64,000 nucleotides of DNA from Bacteroidales bacterium (GTDB lineage Bacteria > Bacteroidota > Bacteroidia > Bacteroidales > F082). Under the pieces are notes generated by a model. It had not been told where the DNA came from. It ran no database searches and worked only from the letters and a program-made list of their open reading frames with translations. Of the stretch, positions 3,229 through 41,309 are shown piece after piece. Where the stretch lies: contig JAUXMV010000058.1 in NCBI GenBank assembly GCA_030683155.1, forward strand, positions 62,001 to 126,000, read 5' to 3'. The translations under genes were made by a program, and so were the position numbers. Position 1 is the stretch's first letter. Every line of letters starts with the position of its first letter.

Positions 3229-6200
3229 TTATTTGTTGATGCCGGTTTTTTCTGCGATCCAGTTTCTGGCATTAACGAAAGCTTCAATCCATGGACTCAC
3301 CTCATCCTGCTTCCGCCCTTCGGGGTAATAAGCCCATTGCCATGGAAGGAAAGAACGCTCCAGATGTGGCATCATTGCAAGATGACGGCCATTGTTTGAG
3401 CAGATTCCTGCTGTTGCCCAGTCACTTCCATTTGGATTTCCGGGATATTCAGTTTGACCGTAATACAACACAATATTGAAATTGTCTTTGTAGCAGGGGA
3501 AGCTAAATTTGCCCTCACCATGAGCCACCCATACACCAAGTCGTTTGCCTGCCATGCTTCCCAGCATCACGCTGTTATTGACAGGAATGTCCACATTGAG
3601 GAATGCCGACTCAAATTTTCCTGAATCATTGTGCAACATCTTCATGCATTCCGGATGTTCCGGATACACCAGATTCAGTGCCACCATGAGTTGACAGCCA
3701 TTGCAAACTCCAAGGCTCAGCGTATCTTCGCGTGCATAGAAATTTTCGAGTGCTTTTTTGGCCTTTTCGTTGTATAAAAATGCCCCTGCCCAGCCTTTGG
3801 CCGAACCCAGCACATCGGAGTTGGAGAAACCGCCGACAAAAACAATCATATTCACTTCCGATAGATCTTCTCTTCCGCTGATAAGATCAGTCATGTGGAC
3901 ATCTTTCACGTCAAAACCTGCCAGATAAAGGGCATAGGCCATTTCACGATCGCCGTTAACGCCTTTTTCGCGGATGATGGCTGCTCTGATGCCTGATGGC
4001 TTGCGTCTTTTGAGGTCGATGCCATATTGGGCTGCTTTGCCTGTGAAACTGTTGTTGAAACTAAAAACGAGATCCTGTTTTTTGTAATTCTTAAAACGCG
4101 TTAAAGCATGACGGCTGCCACTTTGTTTGCGATCGAGCAGGTAGGAAGAAGTGTACCAGGTATCGCGCAAAGCGTTGATATCTAATATATATCGTTCACT
4201 GTTATGGTTAACGGTTAGGAATCTTTCAGCAACAGGATGGCCAAGCATTACATATTCGATGCCTGCTTCAGCCAAAAATGTTCTGGCAGCACCATCTCCC
4301 GAAACCTGAAGTACCACAGAAGGTTTTTCACTGAAAAGTAAATTTATTATTTCTTCGTTTTTCCAGTTGTCCAGATTGATTTTCATGCCGTTTTCGCAAT
4401 TAGCGAAATTCATTTCCAAAAGAGCTGTTATCAGACCGCCGCTGGAAATATCATGTCCGGCAAGAATTAAACCTTTTTCTAGTAGCGATTGAATGGTATC
4501 AAAAGCCTTTGCAAAATAAGCAGCATCATTGAGGTCGGGAGCTGCAGTACCAATTTTATTTTGAATTTGAGCCAGACTGCTCCCGCCAAGATGGAAACCG
4601 TCGTTAGAGAGATCAATATACAGCAGTTCGCTTTTGAAGTCGGCCTTTAGCAATGGATTAACAGTTTTTCTGATGTCTGAAACTTCTCCGGCAGCGGTAA
4701 CGATCACTGTTCCGGGTGCCAAAACCTTCGTTCCATCAGGATATTTTTGTGTCATCGAAAGCGAATCTTTACCCGTAGGGACATTGATTCCAAGTTCTAT
4801 GCATAAGTCGCTCAGCGCTTTCACGGCCTGATAGAGCCGGCTGTTTTCGCCTTCATTTTTAGCTGGCCACATCCAGTTTGCACTCAACGAAATGCCTTTC
4901 AAACCACCTTCTATGGGTGTCCAAAGGATGTTTGTGAGCGCTTCTGCCACAGCAAGCCGGGAGCCAACCCTTGAATCAATCAGGCCGGCAACGGGTGCAT
5001 GACCCAAAGCAGTTGCAATGCCTTTGATTCCCTGATAGTCGATGGCAACAACACCCAGATTGTTCAAAGGTAGCTGAATGGTACCGATGGTCTGCTGTGT
5101 GGTAACTCTTCCGGTTACAGAACGGTCGACTTTATTGGTAAGCCAGTCTTTGCAGGCTACAGATTCCAGTTGTAAAACGTCTTGCAGATATTGGTGCAGA
5201 TGGTCGGCAGCAGGTTTTATTTCAGCAAAAACAGTATGCTTTGTAACGTCATTCAGAACAGTTTTTGGAGGTTTTCCGAGCAGATGCTCAAGCTTCATAT
5301 CTACAGGACAGGTGTTTTTATCCCTTTCAAAGCGAAGCACTCCATCGCCTGTCGTTTCTCCAACTTCATAAAGAGGAGCTCTTTCGCGAATGGCTGTATT
5401 TTTAAGCGTTTCCAGATATTTTGGATCAATTACCAATCCCATGCGCTCCTGCGATTCATTGCCAATTATTTCTTTATCTGACAGGGTAGGGTCGCCAACC
5501 GGCAGTTTATCGATTTGTATTGTTCCACCTGTTTCTTCCACAAGTTCCGAAAGGCTGTTCAGGTGACCGCCGGCACCATGATCATGAATAGAGCGGATAG
5601 GATTGAGGTCAGATTCAGCCATCGCTCTGACGACATTGCTGACTCTTTTCTGCATTTCGGGATTGGCCCGCTGCACAGCATTGAGTTCAATGGCATTGCT
5701 GAACTGACCTGTGTCAACGCTGGAAACAGCTCCGCCGCCCATACCAATACGGTAATTATCGCCACCAAGAACAATCACTTTATCGCCAGTTTCGGGTTTG
5801 TCTTTCTGTGCATCGCGTTCGTTGGCAAAACCCACACCACCAGCCAGCATGATTACTTTGTCGTAGCCGAAATTTCCGGCTTCTTTATGTTCAAAAGTAA
5901 GCAAGCTGCCATTGATGAGTGGCTGCCCGAATTTATTGCCAAAATCCGAAGCACCATTGGATGCTTTTATAAGAATATCTTCAGGGTTATGGTAGAGCCA
6001 TTCGCGGGGTTCGCAATTTTGTTCCCAGCTGCGGTTATCTTCCGAACGTGGGTACGAAGTCATGTAAACGGCTGTCCCAATGAGTGGAATACTGCCTTTT
6101 CCGCCTGCCATACGGTCGCGGATTTCGCCTCCGGTTCCTGTAGCCGCACCGTTGAAAGGCTCAACAGTGGTTGGAAAATTATGCGTTTCAGCTTTGATTG

Positions 6201-36308: not shown

Positions 36309-38975
36309 ATGAAATTCAGACTTTTATTTTTTCCAATTCTGATGTTCTCCTTGTTTCTGTTTCAACCTGTGCATGCACAGTACATTACACCCGGAAACAA
36401 TCTAAGCTTATCCCTTGATGGACTTGTCAGTACTTCAGGTGGTGTTGTGACGCTCAGTGGGGGCACTTATTTTATTAACAGTGCGCTTACTATCTCTGCA
36501 ACGGATACGTTAAAAATCACCAATCCAGCTGTAATCCGCGTTGCGGCTGCAATCAGGATTGAAGTCAGCGGCACAATCATTTCTGATCCTTCATCAGGAA
36601 CAGTGGTTTTTACTGCCATTGATACCACCACTGCCTCAACCAATTTCAGAGGCTTTCGGTTTGATAATTCTCAGGGAAATATCTTTCGCAATACCACTAT
36701 CTCCTATGGTGGTGGTCTGCAGCTGATTTCTTCCGGAGCCCTTTTCGAATATTGCACCTTCAGACGAAACGGATCATCCAATGTGTCTGCTGCTATTACC
36801 TACAGCTCAAGCAGTCCTGTTATCCGATACAACTATTTTATCGAAAATGTAAGGTCAGCTATTGGTTCAGGCGCCAATGTCACCGGATCGCCGTTGATTA
36901 TGTATAATGTGCTCATTAATAATACAACCGACAATTCCAATCGTCCTCAGATAAATATCGGACCGGGTGCTGCCGACACCTTATATATTGTTGGAAATTA
37001 CGTTGAGGGTCTTTATCCCGTGGCCGGTGGTATTGGAATCAGCAATCTGCTTGCTACAGGAAGCACAAAAGCTGTGATTCGTGATAACTTTGTAGTAAAT
37101 AACCGTTATGGCTTTGCCCAGATTGGCAGCAACATCAGCTCGATCATCGCCGACAACATTTTTCTTGACAACAATACTCAAAACAATCCTGCACTCGGTG
37201 GCAGCGGTATCAACTTTCAGGCTTCCGGCACCGGAAATACTGCCATCGTCAGACGAAACATCATTTCAGGCAACCTATGGGGAATCACGATTCAGGGTGT
37301 AGCCAATCCAAATCTTGGTACTGCAGATAATCCCGGCGGAAACGTTTTTTATGATAATGGCAATACAGGTGCTGTTTATGCTGTATACAACAATACGGCC
37401 CTACCCGTAAATGCAATTGGAAATTACTGGGGAACCAACGATCCTGTTCAAGTGGAGGATTATATTTTTCACCAACCCGATCAGGCCAGCCTTGGTTTGG
37501 TAACCTACCTTCCGATTCAAACCCTCGAGCCTGAAATTGAATCTTTTGGATTTTTAATGACAGACAATCCCGCCCTTCCAACAGATATTTTCGGAGTCAT
37601 TGATCAGGTTGCCCTTACCATTGATGTGACTTTGCCTGCCGGAACGGACGTGACTTCCCTGATTCCTCAAATCGGAATTCCTTTGGGAGTAATCACAGAG
37701 CCTGTTGGTGGCGAACCCATCGATTTCAGCGACCCTGTAAGTTTCACAGTTTTAACACCACACGGACAGAATGCAGTCTATACGGTGAACGTAATGGTTG
37801 AACCTTTTACTTATTCACTTAATTTCAATATAACATCTGTGGGTGGGCAACCAATCAACAATGCAGTAATTACGCTTAACGGAACGGCTTATCCGGCAGG
37901 GCAGTATCTCTTCGAAAATCTGTTGGCCGGAAATTATGCCTATACCATAACACATCCTGAATACATTACAGCAGAAGGAACAGCTGCTATAACTGATCAA
38001 AATCTCAGTATTAATGTTGTTCTGGTTCCGATGAGTTACAATGTCACTTTTGATGTGAAAGACAATAACGGCGTGGTTTTGCCTGATGCTATTGTAACTT
38101 TTGACGGCACTTCCTATACGGCCGGTTTCTATGTTTTTCCAAATGTTTTGCCCGGCACATATCCTTATTCCGTCAGCCGCAATGGTTATGAAACCGTCAG
38201 TGGAAATGCTGTCGTAACAAATCAGCATGTGGTGGTTGAAGTGGTGCTTCAGATTATTAATTATACTGTGACCTTCGATGTGAAAGATAACAATGGTGTA
38301 GTTGTACCTGATGCCATTGTCACTTTTAATGGCACTGCTTATTCTGCCGGCTTTTATGTTTTCCCGGATGTTTTGCCCGGCACATATCCTTATTCCGTCA
38401 GTCGTAATGGTTATGAATCTGCAAGTGGCAATGTAGTAGTTACGAATCAGAATGTTTTGGTACAGGTTCAGCTTCAGATCATTGCGTATGTTGTAACAAT
38501 CAAAGTTGATGACAACTACGGCTTCGCATTGGTTGACGCCAATGTTGCACTTCAGAATTATGGAACCCAAACCACCAATTTTGCCGGCAAAGCCTATTTT
38601 TATGGTGTAGTTCCAGGGATCTATGCTTTTGAAATTACGAAGACAGGCTATGCTACCTATAATGGTACGCTGGAAGTGGTTAATGCTGATGTTGATCTGT
38701 CGGTAGTTGTCGAAAACATTACCTCTTTGAATGAGTCAAAACTTGATAATATTGTCTTTTATCCAAATCCTGCAGTTAATTTTATTACTGTTGAAGGAAT
38801 GCCTTCTGAGGTTAAAAAAATATCCTTTGTAGATATTAGTGGTAAGGTGCTTATGCAAGTGAAAAATCTTGAAAATGGTCAGCGTATTTCGTTGGAAAGC
38901 TTGCCAAAAGGAAAATATCAGATTATTTTTGAAACTGCCTCAGGAAGGAAAAGTGCTTCTGTCATAATTCAATAA
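36309..38975 (+). CDS. Large surface protein: beta-helix, tandem PEGA-like repeats, T9SS tail
   Basis: An 888-residue exported protein. It has a signal peptide (MKFRLLFFPILMFSLFLFQPVHAQ), then a right-handed parallel beta-helix at about residues 60-370 rich in Asn and Gly turns (VIRYNYFIENVRSAIGSG, IIADNIFLDNNTQNN). A linker domain with DVTSLIPQIGIPLGV follows. Four carboxypeptidase-regulatory or PEGA-like beta-sandwich repeats of about 75 residues cover about 500-805 (TFDVKDNNGVV, AGFYVFPNVLPGTYPYSVSRNGYE). The end is a T9SS sorting domain (FYPNPAVNFITVEGMP to SASVIIQ). It is likely a surface adhesin or polysaccharide-acting protein; no catalytic residues were recognised. Confidence 0.85.
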   Translation: MKFRLLFFPILMFSLFLFQPVHAQYITPGNNLSLSLDGLVSTSGGVVTLSGGTYFINSALTISATDTLKITNPAVIRVAAAIRIEVSGTIISDPSSGTVVFTAIDTTTASTNFRGFRFDNSQGNIFRNTTISYGGGLQLISSGALFEYCTFRRNGSSNVSAAITYSSSSPVIRYNYFIENVRSAIGSGANVTGSPLIMYNVLINNTTDNSNRPQINIGPGAADTLYIVGNYVEGLYPVAGGIGISNLLATGSTKAVIRDNFVVNNRYGFAQIGSNISSIIADNIFLDNNTQNNPALGGSGINFQASGTGNTAIVRRNIISGNLWGITIQGVANPNLGTADNPGGNVFYDNGNTGAVYAVYNNTALPVNAIGNYWGTNDPVQVEDYIFHQPDQASLGLVTYLPIQTLEPEIESFGFLMTDNPALPTDIFGVIDQVALTIDVTLPAGTDVTSLIPQIGIPLGVITEPVGGEPIDFSDPVSFTVLTPHGQNAVYTVNVMVEPFTYSLNFNITSVGGQPINNAVITLNGTAYPAGQYLFENLLAGNYAYTITHPEYITAEGTAAITDQNLSINVVLVPMSYNVTFDVKDNNGVVLPDAIVTFDGTSYTAGFYVFPNVLPGTYPYSVSRNGYETVSGNAVVTNQHVVVEVVLQIINYTVTFDVKDNNGVVVPDAIVTFNGTAYSAGFYVFPDVLPGTYPYSVSRNGYESASGNVVVTNQNVLVQVQLQIIAYVVTIKVDDNYGFALVDANVALQNYGTQTTNFAGKAYFYGVVPGIYAFEITKTGYATYNGTLEVVNADVDLSVVVENITSLNESKLDNIVFYPNPAVNFITVEGMPSEVKKISFVDISGKVLMQVKNLENGQRISLESLPKGKYQIIFETASGRKSASVIIQ
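38040..38489 (+). repeat. Two tandem 225-bp coding repeats
   Basis: Two adjacent copies of a 225-base unit (75 codons) inside the T9SS gene; GTGAAAG recurs at 38055 and 38280. The copies share long nearly identical runs such as TTTTGCCCGGCACATATCC, which suggests recent duplication or gene conversion. Flanking units at 37815-38039 and 38490-38720 are more diverged. Confidence 0.8.
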
Positions 38976-39801: not shown

Positions 39802-39994
39802 CGATGTTGGACTTAAGTATTTTACTCTAACAATTGTACAACATTTAAGTTTAAAGATCCGAAATTTATTTTCAAAAATTACGGTAAAACTGTTCGTGAC
39901 CGTACAAAAGTGTTCACTTTGACACCACAAATTCAGGCATCACATGTCAGGTAAAAGTGATGTAATATGCATTAAATCAATTAAATACACGTTT

Positions 39995-40008
39995 TGGCAC
40001 AGATTTGG
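39995..40008 (+). promoter_or_regulatory. TGGCAC/TTTGG promoter-like motif (copy 1)
   Basis: TTTTGGCACAGATTTGG lies 55-70 bases before the first IDDIPF gene. TGGCAC followed at 4 bases by TTGG resembles a sigma-54 -24/-12 element but is one base short of the usual spacing. The same block, with a similar downstream CAAAT sequence, stands before the paralog at 40787. Confidence 0.4.
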
Positions 40009-40062
40009 AAATATCTTTATCAAATGAAAATAAAAACTAAAAACCCTCAAATATTAAGAGCC

Positions 40063-40449
40063 ATGAAAACACAAAAAATCATCTTCGCAGCGATCATCAG
40101 CATCATCATGCAGTCTTCAGCTCTTGCCGATGGATTTAAATTGAAAGAAGAGTCTTACATTGATGATATTCCATTCAATACAACTGAAATTTTCTATGAA
40201 ATTTTAGCTGCAGATACTAGCAATCTCTTCCTGCCATCTTTAAATGAAGAAGCTTTCATTGACGATATTCCATTCGATACACATGAAATTGCAGAAGTTG
40301 CCCTATCATCGATCGCAATGGAAAAATCATTCAAAATGCCCGAAGAAGGGTATATCGATGACATTCCTTTTAACACTGAATCTGTAGCTGCAGGTTTTTG
40401 CAAAAAAGTTTCAGCTGCAGACATACACACAATGTTGATGGTAAGATAG
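40063..40449 (+). CDS. Small exported IDDIPF-repeat protein 1
   Basis: A 128-residue protein of unknown function. It has a signal peptide (MKTQKIIFAAIISIIMQSSALADG), then three repeats of about 19 residues: KEESYIDDIPFNTTEIF, NEEAFIDDIPFDTHEIA and PEEGYIDDIPFNTESVA. The repeats are spaced by 20-25 variable residues. The start at 40063, 69 bases inside the longest frame, was chosen because it begins the signal peptide and matches the paralog at 40849. A terminator follows. The acidic-aromatic repeat recalls a short linear binding motif; it resembles the C-terminal DDIPF tip of SSB, but since the protein is exported that likeness is probably chance. Confidence 0.8.
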   Translation: MKTQKIIFAAIISIIMQSSALADGFKLKEESYIDDIPFNTTEIFYEILAADTSNLFLPSLNEEAFIDDIPFDTHEIAEVALSSIAMEKSFKMPEEGYIDDIPFNTESVAAGFCKKVSAADIHTMLMVR

Positions 40450-40479
40450 ACTATCAAACTCCTCCATATACTTTCCCGC

Positions 40480-40503
40480 AACCGGCTTCGGCCGGTTTTT
40501 TAT
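40480..40503 (+). terminator. Terminator after IDDIPF gene 1
   Basis: Perfect stem ACCGGC / GCCGGT (40481-40496) closed by a stable TTCG loop and followed by a run of T. It lies 30 bases past the stop at 40449. Confidence 0.9.
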
Positions 40504-40786
40504 TTAATGCAATTCTTACGTCTGCTTCAGCCGGTCTGAAAGTACTGAATTTTTTTTCCCCGAAATAATATTTGCTCCCGAACTTTAATCGTAAAGGAAT
40601 GCTGAAAATGTGAAAGGCATATTTAGGTAAGAAATTGATGATCAATTTTAATAATCTGAGGTGCATATTTCGATTGAAAAACTGTTCGCCGCCGAACAAA
40701 AGTGTACGTTTTAATAGCTACAATAACGATCATCTTTAGTGCATAAAACCTATTTAAATAATTGAAATACAATTAAATATGTATTT

Positions 40787-40800
40787 TGGCACAAGATTGG
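40787..40800 (+). promoter_or_regulatory. TGGCAC/TTGG promoter-like motif (copy 2)
   Basis: TTTTGGCACAAGATTGG, 48-65 bases before the second IDDIPF gene, parallels copy 1 at 39995 in sequence and spacing. The conserved block includes an upstream TTAAATA and a downstream TCAAAT. Confidence 0.4.
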
Positions 40801-40848
40801 TATTTCCTCTGTCAAATAGCAAGAAAATAAATAAAAAAAATAGCAGCC

Positions 40849-41250
40849 ATGAAAACTCAAAATTTAACCCTCGCCCTCATCTTCAGCATTTTTTTCCAAA
40901 GTGTCATTTTTGCTGATGGTTTCAGAATGAAAGAAGAGTCTTATATCGATGACATCCCATTCAATACAACAGAGATTTTCGATGCACACAACAACGGTGA
41001 TACAAGCATTGTTGAACTCACAACACCGGCAGAAGAATCCTTTATTGATGACATTCCTTTCAATACAGAAAAAATTGCAGGAGAGATTTTGTCAGCAAAA
41101 GCGATGGCAGAAACCTTTACCTTATGCGAAGAAAGCTATATCGATGATATTCCTTTCGACACTAAAATCATCGCTTACCGTTATCTAAGCAGAAAAACAA
41201 ATGCCAACTCATCCTCAATATTAAGGTTCATTGTTTTCAGCGGAAGATAA
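40849..41250 (+). CDS. Small exported IDDIPF-repeat protein 2
   Basis: A 133-residue paralog of the gene at 40063. The signal peptide is MKTQNLTLALIFSIFFQSVIFADG, followed by three repeats: KEESYIDDIPFNTTEIF, AEESFIDDIPFNTEKIA and CEESYIDDIPFDTKIIA. The first repeat is identical to that of protein 1 (EESYIDDIPFNTTEIF). Spacers differ, so the repeats are what is kept. A promoter-like motif lies upstream and a terminator downstream, making each copy a separate transcription unit. Function unknown; the tail ends in a basic, aromatic segment (ILRFIVFSGR). Confidence 0.8.
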   Translation: MKTQNLTLALIFSIFFQSVIFADGFRMKEESYIDDIPFNTTEIFDAHNNGDTSIVELTTPAEESFIDDIPFNTEKIAGEILSAKAMAETFTLCEESYIDDIPFDTKIIAYRYLSRKTNANSSSILRFIVFSGR

Positions 41251-41282
41251 GCGAAAGTCAAAGACAGTCAAAACATAAAAAA

Positions 41283-41309
41283 AGATCAGAATTTTCTGGT
41301 CTTTTTTTT
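41283..41309 (+). terminator. Terminator after IDDIPF gene 2
   Basis: Stem AGATCAGAA (41283-41291) / TTCTGGTCT (41294-41302) with one G-T pair, followed by seven T. It lies 32 bases past the stop at 41250. Confidence 0.8.

Follow-up and report, generated by a model that had tools for sequence, protein, structure and literature searches.

CpxP, Spy and ZraP are LTxxQ-motif proteins that fold into helical dimers, and ZraP stands under a sigma-54 activator. CpxP and Spy are small Sec-exported envelope proteins of an envelope-stress regulon, and CpxP is among the most highly expressed members of that regulon (PMC6737893). PspC, LiaF and Toastrack are described as membrane-stress components in the available text of a survey of the PSP system (PMC11237479); in the same text LytTR is mentioned for Firmicutes and IDDIPF-like proteins are not mentioned. 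According to the accessible part of a MacB review (PMC5985334), resistance to peptide antibiotics, bacitracin and colistin among them, is conferred by MacAB pumps, whose regulator PhoPQ senses antimicrobial peptides. Here we describe small exported proteins made of a repeated IDDIPF motif, encoded by two genes in a 64,000-nucleotide stretch of a Bacteroidales genome (the window). Judging from their promoters, these genes are probably induced jointly with genes already known from cell-envelope stress and drug efflux.

These proteins resemble CpxP and Spy in being small, predicted to be Sec-exported and, by their promoters, probable members of an envelope-stress regulon. They differ from CpxP, Spy and ZraP, however, in having no Pfam or PDB sequence match and no predicted compact fold, with an EExYIDDIPFNT repeat instead, and no LTxxQ-type profile was found in them (Pfam, 29 members; NCBIfam, the two window proteins). 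By analogy, the kind of system, a small exported protein of an envelope-stress regulon, has CpxP/Spy precedents, whereas its architecture differs. With the PSP/Lia system (PspC, LiaI-LiaF-TM, Toastrack) the IDDIPF genes of one group of genomes, the LytTR class, have a 21-bp direct repeat in common, although the proteins contain none of the PSP domains. Similarly, as in MacAB-TolC and BceAB modules, a two-component system is found beside a MacB-type exporter, and the same promoter type precedes IDDIPF genes; this module is distinguished from the known ones by its activator, a sigma-54 protein of NtrC type. Nothing in the accessible part of the MacB review (PMC5985334) corresponds to the small acidic exported proteins encoded at unlinked loci.

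The IDDIPF genes and their family

Both window proteins (Table 1) display an N-terminal hydrophobic signal sequence and no lipobox, and copies of EE-x-[YF]-IDDIPF-[ND]-T-x-x-[IV] start at residues 33, 66 and 98 in each. Each gene has a separate upstream region. The initial annotation had proposed two true exported genes with three conserved copies per protein, and the open reading frames, signal peptides, own upstream regions, terminators and positions of the copies bear this out. The mature products are acidic (pI about 4.1 and net charge −15 for gene 1, about 4.3 and −11 for gene 2) and the two share 53% identity. Synonymous codons differ among the motif copies, and an orthologous gene pair (L005) gives dN/dS values of 0.08 and 0.11 against the window pair, so that selection acts on the protein. 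With the 31 loci described below, these data show the repeat to be more than a chance pattern.

Table 1. Coordinates of the features at the IDDIPF genes and of two other genes of the same genome (window positions, except for the third copy)
Feature	Position	Strand	Remark
Putative activator half-site array upstream of gene 1	39891..39916	+	TGTTCGTGACCGTACAAAAGTGTTCA, 10-bp spaced half-sites
Sigma-54-type −24/−12 element upstream of gene 1	39995..40010	+	TGGCACAGATTTGGAA
IDDIPF-repeat gene 1	40063..40449	+	128 aa from ATG, signal peptide, 3 repeats
Intrinsic terminator 3′ of gene 1	40480..40497	+	scored
Putative activator half-site array upstream of gene 2	40683..40708	+	TGTTCGCCGCCGAACAAAAGTGTACG
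Sigma-54-type −24/−12 element upstream of gene 2	40787..40802	+	TGGCACAAGATTGGTA
IDDIPF-repeat gene 2	40849..41250	+	133 aa, signal peptide, 3 repeats
Hairpin with T-tail 3′ of gene 2	~41279-41308		weaker, by eye
Third IDDIPF copy of the window's genome (G000)	C43:30848-31201		
888-aa protein	36309-38975		NosD-like region, repeated carboxypeptidase-regulatory-like domains, Por_Secre_tail (type IX secretion) domain

The window's genome (G000; 4.74 Mb, 98.6% complete) carries a third copy, and a protein search of genome contigs recovered relatives at 31 loci outside this genome. The repeat, which could have been an artefact limited to one genome, therefore has homologs elsewhere. After later searches the family comprises 86 distinct sequences from Bacteroidales-type MAGs, with dN/dS of about 0.1, indicating purifying selection. 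Its profile matched 1 of 395 genomes sampled across the phylum, 30 of 393 of the order and 62 of 173 of the taxonomic family, where 13 of 16 genera are represented; a genome gives up to 8 matches (long members can give two). The most-sampled genus (g172 of f1, mostly small genomes of about 2-4 Mb) is without IDDIPF genes and also without the closest orthologue of the MacB-linked activator presented below.

In databases, 29 members had no Pfam match at a meaningful E-value, NCBIfam gave no meaningful match for both window proteins, PDB sequences gave no match, and the string IDDIPF was not found in the literature searched. As far as sequence comparison goes, the IDDIPF proteins are thus a previously unnamed family, without match in Pfam, NCBIfam or PDB sequences. 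A weak match in an 883-aa open frame of G000 was considered as an occurrence of the motif inside a larger protein and rejected, no IDDIPF copy being present in the ORFs listed. The genes found repeatedly beside family members have housekeeping functions and lie in synteny (thymidine kinase, M28 peptidase, tetrapyrrole methylase family, NUDIX, SRAP); consequently, neighbourhood and operon context name no docking partner.

Two promoter classes and their other targets

A −24 element TGGCA[CT] or a LytTR repeat precedes 79 of the 86 family genes as against 6 of 173 neighbouring ORFs, the controls being the other ORFs of the same loci. In class 1 (53/86 genes, including all three of G000), the element TGGCA[CT], seen in 6/173 controls, is located some 45-80 nt ahead of the ATG and in most cases accompanied by a matching −12 G. 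TGTWCG/CGWACA half-sites stand farther upstream, and single half-sites are strongly enriched before family genes compared with the 173 control ORFs. The features of a sigma-54 regulon, an element of the type TGGCAC-N5-TTGC with upstream activator sites, are thus present, the −12 part often departing from TTGC. Class 2 (26/86 genes) carries a LytTR-type direct repeat of 21 bp, CCRYTCRCCKA-N10-CCRYTCRCCKA, that is absent from all 173 controls. It stands before a Bacteroidota-like sigma-70 promoter, so that a direct-repeat pair about 21 bp apart upstream of a promoter, as in a LytTR regulon, was found here.

Outside the family, the class 1 array points to efflux. Throughout G000, with up to 3 mismatches, it matched both window arrays and one MacB operon only (reversed-pattern control, 0). 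Across seven genomes the triple half-site gave 14 matches and its control none: 11 lie before IDDIPF genes, two before orthologous MacB ABC operons, and the last, without a downstream gene of interest, is probably due to chance. When the palindrome was searched in relaxed form, a further gene came up, for an outer-membrane efflux protein of the TolC family, preceded by the palindrome and TGGCACGCTTTTAG. The exact palindrome alone had four matches inside coding regions, which were taken as chance. A MacB operon of G000 (L182:61-6695, contig C94) encodes a MacB ATPase, two permeases and HlyD, then a PocR-PAS histidine kinase; its promoter TGGCATAATAAGTG and half-sites are conserved in another genome (G956).

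Which protein might activate these promoters? Contig C44 of G000 encodes an NtrC-type response regulator (receiver, sigma-54 ATPase, Fis HTH) and a kinase, divergent to an HlyD-MacB exporter, and the intergenic region contains TGTTCGCATTTGTACA and TGGCACAATCTTGG, a sigma-54 site and related half-sites. The sigma-54 element is found there in 30/30 orthologues, with recognisable half-sites in most. Of the 62 genomes that have IDDIPF genes, 56 possess an orthologue of this regulator (E below 1e-200, identity of at least about 76%), as do 4 of the 111 that have none; since most negatives belong to one genus of small genomes, this phylogenetic co-occurrence partly opposes one genus to the rest and only the genus-level figure (12/13 versus 0/3, p 0.007) should be weighed. 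G000 has nine strong sigma-54 activator matches. When the C44 and IDDIPF half-sites are compared, the first pair is identical in layout and the third is spaced differently. On the similarity of these half-sites, the C44-type regulator (L202:6273-7649) is a candidate activator of the IDDIPF promoters.

The class 2 repeat points to membrane stress. It gave 26 matches in six genomes, with one for the reversed control: 17 before IDDIPF genes, seven before PspC and/or LiaF-TM operons, one before a TM2-domain gene and one at a contig end. One of the seven is the operon LiaF – LytS-type His_kinase – LytTR response regulator (L181, with the LytTR protein at 4224-4973), and carrying its own repeat is what would be expected of a self-controlled regulator. 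In sigma-54-class genomes, PspC genes displayed no shared motif at the start codons examined, which cover part of the loci; only the LytTR repeat therefore ties IDDIPF to PspC.

Taken over both classes, membership of the IDDIPF genes in a regulon with envelope-stress and efflux genes appears well supported computationally, and we hold it with high confidence. The initial annotation knew of no function, and these promoters supply a candidate role as member of such a regulon. Dedicated promoters common to the IDDIPF genes and to both gene kinds are most simply read as those of envelope-stress effectors.

Repeat architecture and possible mode of action

The full unit, F-x-[LF]-x-[ED]-E-x-Y-[IV]-[DN]-D-I-P-F-[ND]-T-x-x-[IV]-A, occurs in 1-5 copies per protein. 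Among 216 units, the D and I of DIPF never vary, in part as an effect of the search pattern, and P, F, T and the second E hardly do, giving the near-invariant peptide EExYIDDIPFNT. Of 140 spacings, 98 have a pitch of 31-32 residues (73 of exactly 32, 25 of 31), while linkers share 11% identity inside one protein and 9-11% across proteins, compared with 65% in the motif. The spacers had been described as unconserved and the linkers as free. This is half right: linker sequence drifts, but length stays at 32 or 31 residues and the residue pattern is helix-forming. AlphaFold gave no fold for the whole protein (pTM 0.18); for two units with 60 rows it gave an extended motif, then a confident helix (pLDDT 84, pTM 0.34). 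A compact fold was rejected on these grounds, the two-unit model having no compact packing. The motif is thus predicted to be extended and the linker helical, in a chain without compact fold.

An N-terminal hydrophobic segment is predicted in 85/86 members and an AxA-like site in 80/86, whereas a lipobox was found in 0/86. Mature chains are acidic throughout the family (median pI 4.05, median net charge −16). Seven of the 86 (L019, L022, L031, L058, L062, L072 and L076) bear a hydrophobic C-terminal segment resembling a membrane anchor; in three of these the segment ILEILIPVIIILGTLSYAVYEYILN is conserved, and all seven seem to be membrane-anchored forms. The IDDIPF proteins would very probably reside in the periplasm.

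Starting from what is read in the sequences (the family and the selection on it, the export signal, the motif with its pitch, and the promoter classes with the other genes they mark), the following course of events can be proposed, its activator, inducing stress, periplasmic residence, partner and docking being conjectural. Envelope damage or attack (antimicrobial peptide, cell-wall or membrane stress) would be the trigger, upon which the NtrC-type response regulator encoded beside the MacB-type exporter would fire the sigma-54 promoters; in sister lineages the LiaF-LytS-LytTR system would act on sigma-70-type promoters instead. IDDIPF proteins, largely unfolded, would then build up in the periplasm, where a C-terminal membrane helix would tether some of them. 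Each extended EExYIDDIPFNT segment would dock into the same specific site on a partner and the fixed helical linker would set the distance between docked segments, so that one chain might bridge or saturate several partner copies, be it an envelope protein, a stress sensor or a stress-damaged client.

Within this scheme, that the proteins are small acidic Sec-exported effectors of a Bacteroidales envelope-stress response, docking included, seems to us reasonably likely, mainly on account of the regulon and the location. Multivalent docking itself is plausible but somewhat less than an even bet. A multivalent binding protein had been suggested from the start, and the short, extended, near-invariant motif, the fixed pitch and the lack of a predicted globular fold agree with it, although no partner was found. 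The fixed pitch suggests several motifs engaging at once. A more precise form, in which an unfolded periplasmic ‘ruler’ presents near-invariant 12-residue docking peptides at a 32-residue pitch, through helical linkers of unconstrained sequence, to a regularly spaced or multimeric envelope partner, and is wired to two unrelated circuits in sister lineages (sigma-54/NtrC with MacB; LytTR/LiaF-PspC), is offered tentatively.

Alternatively, the proteins could be cargo, putative substrates that the co-regulated MacA-MacB-TolC-type pump would carry from periplasm to the outside, there to act. The sigma-54 promoter arrangement common to MacB/HlyD/TolC operons and IDDIPF genes invites this idea, and a Sec-exported protein, the enterotoxin STII, leaves via MacAB-TolC according to the accessible part of the review (PMC5985334). 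Yet co-regulation needs no transporter-cargo relation, LytTR-class genomes have their IDDIPF genes under PspC/LiaF control and not under the pump's activator, and the seven anchor-like members could not be released without cleavage, which makes this reading improbable. We give similarly little credit to a feedback ligand that would bind the periplasmic part of a sensor kinase or LiaF/PspC, damp signalling and be titrated by damage. CpxP and CpxA offer a precedent (PMC6737893), the putative sensor belongs to the same regulon (LiaF-LytS-LytTR operon) and the strict motif implies a specific partner; however, a motif found under two unrelated sensor systems is unlikely to fit one sensor-specific site unless the partner is shared, and up to 8 profile matches per genome are much for a damper.

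Still less probable is a charge decoy, in which polyacidic chains would sequester cationic antimicrobial peptides or metal ions. The median charge of −16 with a pI of about 4, in a regulon of antimicrobial-peptide type, is what such chains might show, but D-I-P is invariant or nearly so in 216 units next to linkers of 11% identity, and neither I, P, F and T nor the pitch would be held constant by charge alone; the strictness of the motif speaks for a specific protein partner and against a decoy. Finally, the earlier proposal of a precursor cut between repeats into small secreted peptides, natural for a signal peptide followed by repeats with divergent linkers, is the only rival close to excluded, since the 140 linkers contain a dibasic pair in only 14 cases and no conserved residue pattern pointing to cleavage, their length is fixed where free linkers should vary, and some members (7/86 C-termini) are apparently membrane-anchored.

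If envelope-stress effectors are indeed at hand, the family would be an entry point to Bacteroidales envelope-stress signalling, on which a limited literature search found little. It offers an output gene that is easy to recognise, two DNA motifs and, as candidate regulators, the MacB-linked NtrC-type protein and the LiaF-LytS-LytTR system. Should the docking model hold, the invariant peptide, e.g. EESYIDDIPFNTEEIA, would be a ready bait for an envelope partner. One effector family rewired between two unrelated circuits would also be of interest for regulatory evolution.

Two minor observations concern gene arrangement. In one genome (L120, G952:C191), the gene of a TM2-domain small membrane protein with a LytTR repeat shares its contig with an IDDIPF gene, 2.7 kb away. 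In another (L181:1-6764, G950:C40, and L204), a MacB exporter with an NtrC-type regulator adjoins the LiaF-LytS-LytTR operon, and the two circuits that would control IDDIPF genes in different genomes thus stand side by side.
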